Positions 5,183-45,773 of a stretch of DNA of 64,000 nt are shown here, in pieces. The translations under genes were made by a program, and so were the position numbers. The stretch's first letter is position 1. Every line of letters starts with the position of its first letter. The notes beneath the pieces were generated by a model. The model was not told the origin of the DNA, made no database searches, and was given only the letters and a program-made list of their open reading frames with translations. This stretch comes from Companilactobacillus bobalius (GTDB lineage Bacteria > Bacillota > Bacilli > Lactobacillales > Lactobacillaceae), in assembly GCF_009764355.1 (NCBI RefSeq), contig NZ_LNUA01000031.1, forward strand, positions 62,001 to 126,000. The letters are read 5' to 3'.

Positions 5183-5222
5183 GCTTTTATATTAATAACC
5201 ATGGTTCTATGTTTTATAGTGG

Positions 5223-5340
5223 AAACGCGTTCCACAGGCCAGATTCCTGTGCTTTGCCTGACTTCACGAACTGTCTGCTACGCAGCCAATTCGCAAAGTC
5301 CTGCAAATGCTCAGAATCTAACCGGCTTGTTCCACGCTCT
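5223..5340 (-). repeat. Structured 3'-UTR element, family II copy A
   Basis: Read on the - strand this 118-nt copy starts AGAGCGTGGAACA and ends CTGTGGAACGCGTTT. ACAAGCC pairs with GGCCTGT, AGATTC with GAATCT, and a long inner hairpin is built from TTTGC/GCAAA, GACTT/AAGTC and GAATTGGCTGC/GCAGACAGTTC. It is the distal of two tandem copies behind glpF. Compared with copy B, junction segments (AGAGCGTG, GGTTAG, GAG-ATTTGC, CTGTGGAACG) are kept while stems differ but still pair. Open frames here (5158-5449) look accidental. Confidence 0.7.
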
Positions 5341-12749: not shown

Positions 12750-12774
12750 ATAGTATTTTAAGGGTGAGTTTAAG

Positions 12775-12952
12775 ATGCCGCCCTCCACAAAAATCGGGAA
12801 TGCATTGGAACGCTATGGGCACGGCTTGAAGCTAATTATTTCACACTTCGTGCAAAATAATGGATCTTCAAGTCCGGCCTTATTGTAAACGGCAAAGCCG
12901 TTAACAATAATCTCATAGCTGAATGCATTTCCGATTTTTGTTTCGGGCTAGA
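12775..12952 (+). repeat. Structured repeat element, family I copy E1
   Basis: Begins ATGCCG 26 nt after a + strand stop codon. Outer stem 12787-12805 with 12923-12941; second arm CTTGAAG/CTTCAAG (12825-12831, 12866-12872) with ATTATTT/AAATAAT above it; third arm TTATTGT/ACAATAA with AACGGC-AAA-GCCGTT at its tip (12880-12909). Junction sequences GGAACGCTATGGGCAC and CATAGCTGA match copy E2 at 45599-45773. Confidence 0.75.
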
Positions 12953-13013
12953 TCCTATTCTTATTATTTATTTCGGGGTAAATAATAAATAGCTATTCGT
13001 TAGATGAATTAAA

Positions 13014-13085
13014 AGCAGTATCTATTTTATGGGATTAGTACACTTAAGTGTATTGAAAACTATGAATAAATACTGCTATTTTTTA
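13014..13085. terminator. Terminator shared by elements E1 and E3
   Basis: AGCAGTAT (13014-13021) pairs with ATACTGCT (13070-13077), with an inner AGTACACTT/AAGTGTATT arm; TTTTTT follows on + and TTTT on -. It lies between the convergent elements E1 and E3. Confidence 0.65.
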
Positions 13086-13137: not shown

Positions 13138-13298
13138 GTCTGGAGTAACAAATCCAATTGGTCTCAGCTGTGAAATTGTCCTTAGTGGGTTTCCCACTTA
13201 GGACAAGACCAGTATTTGAGATAATTGTGAACTTCAATTAGCTCAAATCTGTGTCCACAGCGTTCCAGACCAATTGGATTTGTTGCGGAAGACGGCAT
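13138..13298 (-). repeat. Structured repeat element, family I copy E3
   Basis: Reverse orientation. Perfect 18-bp outer stem (13147-13164 with 13267-13284), arm ATTTGAG/CTCAAAT (13214-13220, 13242-13248), and arm TTGTCC/GGACAA with AGTGGG/CCCACT at its tip (13176-13206). On the - strand it begins ATGCCGTCTTCC exactly as E2 and keeps GGAACGCTGTGGACAC and CAGCTGA, although nearly all paired bases differ from E1 and E2. Confidence 0.75.
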
Positions 13299-13445
13299 AT
13301 TTCACATAAAATTAATAAGAAAAACGTAATTTACAAATGTAGGCTTGCAATTTCTTGGTTTTAGTTTTAAATAGAAGCTGATAAGTCTATATTTGTAAAC
13401 TTTATTTTCGAGAATTGGTATTAACCAATGTTCATGCGCTTTAGA

Positions 13446-45598: not shown

Positions 45599-45773
45599 AT
45601 GCCGTCTTCCACAAAAATTGGGAATGCTGTTGGAACGTTATGGGTACGATTTGAAACTAATTATTTTACACTTTGTGCAAAATAATGGATTTCCAAAGTC
45701 GGCCTCACTGTAACCGGTAAAGCCGGTAACAATGATCTCATAGCTGAACGCATTCCCAAATTTTGCTCCAGAC
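45599..45773 (+). repeat. Structured repeat element, family I copy E2
   Basis: Begins ATGCCGTCTTCC in the 3' UTR of the MgtC gene. Outer stem 45612-45627 with 45750-45765 (one mismatch), an arm ATTATTTT/AAAATAAT, and a third arm with ACCGG-TAAAG-CCGGT at its tip. Junctions GGAACGTTATGGGTAC, CTCATAGCTGA and CTCCAGAC are shared with E1 and/or E3. Confidence 0.75.

Follow-up and report, generated by a model that had tools for sequence, protein, structure and literature searches.

Whether DNA sequences that keep their junctions while replacing their stems mark a structured RNA or a form of mobile DNA is the question raised by three dispersed, foldable copies (E1, E2 and E3) in the genome of Companilactobacillus bobalius. 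These copies lie within a stretch of 64,000 nucleotides (contig NZ_LNUA01000031.1, positions 62,001 to 126,000), which was analyzed as a whole and is referred to below as the window. A preliminary description, made from the sequence of the window, regarded the three copies as a dispersed structured module and took the retention of the junctions as pointing to a structured RNA rather than to selfish DNA.

Three folded cores in the window

All three copies were found at the positions and on the strands first assigned to them, and the features that surround them are listed in Table 1.

Table 1. Features of the E1/E2 unit and of E3, in window coordinates. R1 is the covariance model built from E1, E2 and E3, and the three bit scores are those of the seeds of R1 itself.
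Feature	Position	Strand	Description
Leader, left half	12750..12774	+	Between the stop codon of a 92-aa gene and E1; shortened and degenerate; ortholog comparison
Core E1, A type	12775..12948	+	174 nt; outer and inner stems plus a pair of hairpin arms; R1 201.8 bits (seed)
E1 tail	12949..13013	+	AT-rich inverted repeat (about 12961-12988); direct reading; tails conserved in other units
Central hairpin	13014..13077	.	A run before, T run after; -24.3 kcal/mol, z -5.2
Core E2	13138..13298	-	161 nt; faces E1; R1 158.8 bits (seed)
Leader, right half	13299..13326	-	Ends in AAGAAAAACG on the + strand
Core E3	45599..45773	+	14 nt 3′ of an MgtC-like gene; R1 181.7 bits (seed)

The minimum free energies (MFEs) of E1, E2 and E3 are -80.1, -74.4 and -56.3 kcal/mol, with z-scores against shuffled sequences of -9.7, -11.4 and -5.4, respectively, and for each copy none of 200 shuffles was equal. 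A structural alignment confirmed that the copies share one architecture with near-invariant segments, in which an outer stem leads, across an internal loop with unequal sides (GGAA / TGA), into a short inner stem, followed by a pair of arms with an AAA-type loop at the tip of the second. The segments that had been described as unpaired junctions are indeed nearly invariant, but parts of GGAACG-Y-TRTGG are paired to parts of CAYAGC and build the inner stem, in which an A-T pair in one copy is exchanged for a G-C pair in the other between E1 and E2. Two further details required correction. Nearly every pair had been said to differ between E3 and the other copies; E1 and E3 in fact share 82.8% identity, with differences at 17 of 67 pairs (8 one-sided and 9 two-sided), as against 26 of 57 pairs between E1 and E2 and 30 of 57 between E2 and E3, and the divergent copy among the three is E2, not E3. 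The outer stem of E3 is not the perfect 18-bp helix originally proposed, as its best fold contains interruptions; over the whole structure, the 67 pairs of E3 comprise 59 Watson-Crick pairs, 4 G-U pairs and 4 mismatches. The main point of the preliminary description, that the junctions are conserved while the stems turn over, nevertheless stands, as does the absence of the module from Rfam: a scan of the window identified no family at its gathering score (three matches near E1/E2, with E-values up to 5, fall far under theirs), and scans of 7 further core-bearing loci likewise gave no match at the gathering score.

The central hairpin of the E1/E2 unit is terminator-like in both directions. A simple terminator scan of the window, restricted to loops of 3-8, found none, and simple promoter and terminator scans gave no lead. 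The inverted partner of E3 has been lost in the window, and an end remnant of this partner persists in C. kimchii and in the nearest genome searched (G001).

Distribution and two-core arrangement of the family

A search with R1 gave 30 matches in G001 (E ≤ 0.001) and matches in 34 of the 36 Companilactobacillus genomes, in 8 of which all 46 candidates scored, and none in 24 genomes outside the genus. A family restricted to the genus was rejected, as a second model (R2), built from 68 diverse copies derived partly from Levilactobacillus, Lapidilactobacillus and Lacticaseibacillus, detected the core (E ≤ 1e-6) in 129 of 397 Lactobacillaceae genomes and 15 of 40 genera; as regards the family, the first negative outside the genus was thus due to the insufficient sensitivity of R1. 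The R2 survey was strictly filtered and scored no more than the top 7 candidates of each genome, so that its 268 negatives do not establish that the family is absent. When the genome collection was scanned with a pattern, 94 stretches were returned, and the 80 listed include members of Levilactobacillus, Lapidilactobacillus and Lacticaseibacillus. R1 confirmed cores from these genera in five of the loci searched (L301, L334, L337, L342 and L344; best copy in each, E ≤ 7.1e-14) and, up to an E-value of 0.1, found no match in L287 or in the loci from other phyla (L296, L300, L324, L347, L359 and L361).

When one core was used as a BLAST query, 15 Lactiplantibacillus plasmids matched it in part (64% of its length at 77% identity), and a search with another core added two plasmids, of L. 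brevis and L. plantarum; phage records gave no lead. A truncated core (129 nt, 83.4 bits) follows WxL/DUF916 genes on plasmids of C. futsaii and Pediococcus inopinatus (L135 and L136), and 129-nt cores in three other genomes (G011, G012 and G024) are identical to it in score and flanks. To judge from these matching sequences, plasmid-borne spread of the 129-nt core between genera is likely. The leaders differ in other genera (for example, AAGGGTTGAAAG... in genus g21), where the cores adjoin ordinary genes, such as those encoding UvrC (uvrC), ABC transporters and aldehyde dehydrogenase; when nine genes beside such cores were scanned, 8 matched varied ordinary Pfam families and 1 matched none. 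At a site that seems to be orthologous between L418 and L427, which come from two species of genus g32, the outer stems of the cores are partly alike and the inner stem and both arms differ with pairing intact, a difference that reflects either re-insertion or rewriting in place.

In Companilactobacillus, 232 hits, less 3 from one duplicate locus and 17 antisense overlaps, yielded 212 copies, which comprise 75 convergent pairs, E1/E2 being one of them, and 62 cores without a detected partner. The usual unit consists of two inward-facing cores around a central hairpin. Conservation extends past the cores, which measure about 140-180 nt when full, into the outer leader, the tail and the central hairpin with its preceding A and following T runs, and this hairpin has a z-score of -4.5 to -7.1 in the four units that were folded, including that of the window. 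From core to core, the 75 pairs measure 294-811 bp (median 537), with the leaders extra, and their spacers of 78-459 nt (median 200) are too short for a transposase; 29 of the 212 cores lie inside a mechanical ORF of at least 70 aa. In four loci (L005, L013, L027 and L064) and their C. kimchii (G029) counterparts, a recurrent terminator-like sequence, GAAC..CTTCCATTAAGTATTCAAG..CTTGAAT..GTTCTTTT, was observed together with its mirror, and may represent the central hairpin in a further subfamily.

A convergent partner was present in 4 of 17 loci from other genera, which suggested that these genera carry mostly single cores; this generalization was dropped, as 11 of 14 further loci (L438-L451), chosen as high-scoring copies and mostly several per genome, have a partner, one of which is weak (E 2.3e-4). 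The cores are intergenic and often lie just 3′ of stop codons, with the nearest upstream ORF on the same strand for 138 of the 212 copies and on the opposite strand for 72. The convergent pairs had suggested 3′-UTR elements of convergent genes, with one element per gene end; this idea was discarded, given that the outward neighbor is on the same strand in only those 138 copies and that target duplications bound the scorable pairs as wholes.

Ends, target sites and histories of the copies

The outer ends of the units connect the family to ISL3-family insertion sequences (ISs). In C. crustorum (G027), the leader starts with the 24-mer GGTTCTTWCTCAAGTTTGGTTATA, which ends four units, one end each, and which occurs exactly in 9 of 453 loci. 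An ISL3-family IS in genome G007 (L278 and L381, which are the same IS) carries this 24-mer at both ends, and the 24-mer was also found at three loci around transposase fragments in G024. A second IS, in G010 (L277), ends in the related sequence GGTTCTTTCTTAAACTTGGTTA and is flanked by a perfect duplication of 8 bp, GTTTTGCC. Two proteins, of 623 and 614 aa, scored 226.6 and 241.5 bits as ISL3 transposases (cut-off, 180); the latter, from G010, is near-intact, open for 614 codons with one TGA crossed by the alignment. Among the 36 genomes of the genus, an intact transposase of the relevant ISL3 type occurs only in G007, with fragments in others, and none was found in the draft assembly of C. 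crustorum, which has the best end match. No cores were found inside the IS copies L277 and L278, and the single core of L277 lies outside the IS. Two candidates for an autonomous version were rejected, namely L386, in which ISL3 fragments lie between two cores but the locus is too decayed to reveal an intact autonomous unit, and L272, in which a core lies beside an ISL3 gene but the IS seems to end before it. A 257-aa protein encoded between two Lapidilactobacillus cores has three relatives, one of them named DUF443, and no transposase match.

With up to 7 substitutions allowed, the end motif was recognized at both ends of 10 of the 75 pairs. The 8-bp flanks of these pairs match at a mean of 6.7 of 8 positions with a 1-base shift allowed, compared with 4.57 for swapped flanks (0 of 20,000 permutations as high), and range from 4/8 in one pair to 8/8 in two; 8 of the 10 pairs are from C. 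crustorum, where the end motif was defined, and the stricter motif and the 1-base shift were adopted after a first scan with a loose motif had been seen, which found 2 perfect 8-mers among 18 pairs that could be scored and otherwise mostly chance values. Over a further 37 bases, the left flank is more similar to the reverse-complemented right flank than is the case for swapped flanks (0 of 20,000 permutations as high), and the flanks can be read as two terminator arms, such as AAATAATAGCAGGTAATCA on both sides of L004; these arms had initially been spotted by eye, in the very C. crustorum units on which the test was then run. Inspection by eye also placed the IS copies L277 and L278, the latter with a 7-base duplication offset by 1 base, in terminator-like hairpins, and located an ISL3 end within the second arm of a core in L281 (G017), where both R1 and R2 find the core. 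A second such insertion into a core arm was seen by eye in L400 of the same genome, but neither model finds a core there.

The histories of individual copies were followed by comparing 50 loci and the window with 1.15 Mb of C. kimchii sequence. For 11 loci, corresponding to 9 C. kimchii sites, the flanks align on both sides and the core is absent, lost or replaced, and at least one further core-missing locus (L069) lies outside the 11 counted. Opposite L003 and L013, C. kimchii (G029:C7) has a deletion scar between short direct repeats, and removal of the core in this way is as expected from slippage across a DNA hairpin; opposite L063, L027 and L068, it carries another structured repeat, and no core was seen at the remaining sites compared. 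E3 is common to C. kimchii, G025 (the contig of which ends inside the core) and G001, where the ortholog has internal deletions, and is absent from C. suantsaicola (G022). The E1 ortholog in C. kimchii and G001 is, by eye, interrupted by parts of another unit. Near-identical copies were found at scattered sites of one genome, and no recent insertion was caught in the act among the compared loci. These histories of loss, nesting and decay fit mobile DNA better than a constrained gene, and individual copies, including those of the window, look as if they are decaying.

In the window itself, positions 5194-5227 of the minus strand retain part of another structured repeat of dispersed type, CGTTTCCACTAT..AGAAC..TGGTTATT (3 mismatches, with 0 such matches expected). 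Apparent members of this second family are present in C. kimchii at sites that in its relatives contain the element described here.

On the basis of the shared IS ends, target duplications, hairpin-like targets, nesting and decay shown in relatives, E1+E2 and E3 are probably copies of a non-autonomous transposable element of the ISL3 type, that is, a miniature inverted-repeat transposable element (MITE). Against this reading, the window copies have no recognizable ISL3-type end; no full end was found anywhere in the window at up to 3 mismatches, and AAGAAAAACG is perhaps, from its sequence, a degenerate form of the AAGAACC end of the C. crustorum units. The preliminary description had named identity to a described MITE or REP with evidence of transposition as an outcome that would overturn its view; evidence of the transposition type was obtained, whereas no earlier description of the present element was found in the open-licence papers searched.

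An alternative assignment of the mobility is to the core alone, which would move as folded single-stranded DNA in the manner of attC or REP/Y1 elements through a hypothetical enzyme, with the ISL3 ISs merely targeting core hairpins and the ISL3-ended two-core units representing a secondary capture. The 62 of 212 Companilactobacillus cores and the 13 of 17 loci in other genera that lack a partner, the conservation of the junctions in 15 of 40 genera, the ISL3 copy inside a core arm and the DNA-like mismatches described below would all suit this model, which is nonetheless unlikely: the high-scoring loci of other genera contain mostly convergent pairs (11/14), the target duplications in C. crustorum flank the whole pair and not the single core, and no candidate enzyme happened to be noticed beside the cores.

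Covariation, mismatches and related elements

The covariation check suggested in the preliminary description gave an overwhelming result in larger alignments. In an alignment of 68 copies (A6; 66 distinct rows), 96.1% of the cells pair, a percentage inflated by fitting the alignments to the structure, with which independent MFE folds of E1-E3 agree. Two-sided changes occur at 66 of the 67 pairs, and the covariation score is 0.66, compared with 0.166 for shuffles and at most 0.093 for slid partners; a second alignment (A3) gave the same picture, with two-sided changes at 64 of 67 pairs.

The nature of the mismatches distinguishes between the two levels at which such pairing may be maintained, as an RNA tolerates G·U pairs and not the mirror A·C, whereas both are mismatches in a DNA palindrome. 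In the well-paired columns of the 212 copies (those with no more than 8% non-Watson-Crick cells, alignments A3 and A4 summed, with one conserved G·U column of 67/68 and 134/135 cells excluded), 9935 Watson-Crick, 84 G·T, 118 A·C and 90 other cells were counted, and the 34 hits from other genera (10% limit; two G·U-dominated columns excluded) gave 1395, 10, 22 and 15, respectively. For 34 tRNAs from the fetched DNA, the counts were 705 Watson-Crick, 53 G·U and 0 A·C, although the tRNA finder itself favors G·U. When 66/67 columns were included for the 212 copies (11908 Watson-Crick, 202 G·T, 349 A·C and 179 others), the excess of A·C over G·T came largely from a few columns; because of this concentration, an antisense RNA is not claimed, and the claim is limited to the lack of a G·U preference. 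That G·U is no commoner than A·C outside a few conserved columns argues for folding at the DNA level, and the pairing of the cores is probably kept at that level and not by an RNA. Since the test is diluted by mutations after insertion, most copies seemingly decaying, the mismatch spectrum shows the absence of RNA constraint on the existing copies and says less about their founders. Among copies at least 95% alike, 45 two-sided pair differences were found, compared with 3.4 expected, beside 196 one-sided differences; such early two-sided changes are consistent with arm-to-arm copying without being proof of it, as selection and copying are not separated.

A structured RNA under selection (a 3′-UTR element, sRNA or regulatory RNA) that has spread by duplication would explain this very strong covariation, the conservation of the junctions across genera and the location of the nearest upstream ORF on the same strand in 138 of the 212 copies. 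We consider it very unlikely, given that two-sided changes are present without the G·U tolerance expected of a functional RNA strand, that cores lie on both strands of one intergenic region and beside varied ordinary genes, that orthologs are deleted or interrupted and that no Rfam family matches. The original inference that the copies point to structured RNA and not to selfish DNA is likewise unsupported in view of the ISL3-type ends, target duplications, nested insertions and decaying orthologs. That the units are host terminators or transcription insulators duplicated by recombination without transposition, as the A and T runs of the central hairpin and the intergenic positions, often directly after stop codons, might suggest, is scarcely credible in the face of the target duplications, IS-identical ends, near-identical scattered copies and the 72 of 212 copies whose nearest upstream ORF is on the opposite strand.

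For the favored ISL3-type MITE, the unit would run from an end repeat and leader through a folded core and tail to the central bidirectional hairpin, followed by the inverted tail, core and leader. An ISL3-type transposase supplied in trans would cut the ends and insert the unit into a terminator hairpin at its tip, and the central hairpin would replace the broken terminator, allowing the host to tolerate the unit. The core may act near each end as folded DNA (a hairpin or cruciform), for example as a structure for the transposase or for target capture, and its arms would stay Watson-Crick if one were recopied from the other in the folded strand and not altered via G·U intermediates. A point against this explanation is that a passive passenger of a MITE need not keep its junctions in 15 genera, and the core must therefore have some function that the explanation does not supply; this function and the reason for the conservation of the junctions are the point of interest. 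More tentatively, and with less confidence than the MITE assignment itself, the core may constitute a new class of module made of folded DNA. In this view, it is a hairpin with a three-way junction; a protein would read the junctions on the extruded strand, and arm-to-arm copying of DNA would restore the arms as Watson-Crick pairs. Such modules would be paired at subterminal positions in small mobile elements of at least 15 Lactobacillaceae genera and would aid them in finding hairpins. The family would then also provide, on a large scale, a natural example of textbook "RNA covariation" that involves no RNA.

Apart from mechanism, the results describe a structured repeat family without an Rfam match that was detected in roughly one in three of the Lactobacillaceae genomes surveyed. 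If the MITE interpretation is true, covariation by itself, on which new RNAs are usually judged, can arise from DNA palindromes, and the count of G·U against A·C would be a cheap control in RNA-discovery pipelines; an element that enters terminator hairpins while carrying its own terminator would also have a neat route to host tolerance.

Among known systems, REP/BIME sequences with RAYT transposases and the attC sites of integrons likewise fold as DNA and keep their unpaired bases conserved while the stems vary freely, a comparison that concerns the manner of working only. The BOX, RUP and SPRITE elements differ from the present unit in architecture, the comparison at the sequence level being that of the Rfam scans. 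The likeness of these Streptococcus pneumoniae elements lies in being dispersed, non-coding and partly terminator-like and in inserting into one another, as outlined in a MITE review whose main text mentions neither ISL3 nor lactobacilli (PMC10969869). REPs are 20-40 bp in length (PMC3733652), unlike the present cores of about 140-180 nt, and a survey of stem-loop families reports one L. johnsonii family, which lies inside genes (PMC2267715). IS1272 and TnSha1 of staphylococci (IS1182 family) also target hairpins, including transcription terminators, but are described as replacing or deleting part of the hairpin and leaving no target duplication (PMC4923244, PMC5678879), whereas the present unit has duplications, retains both arms and is associated with a different transposase family. 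Likeness to ISL3-family ISs (NF033550, PF01610) and IS-derived MITEs extends to the 24-base IS end in four C. crustorum units, the degenerate 8-bp duplications, the absence of a visible transposase gene from the units and the AT-rich intergenic sites; unlike them, the present unit contains a bidirectional hairpin at its center and two inverted cores that fold as three-way junctions, and it is most likely a miniature element that has ISL3-type ends, carries folded core modules in pairs and is distributed across the Lactobacillaceae.
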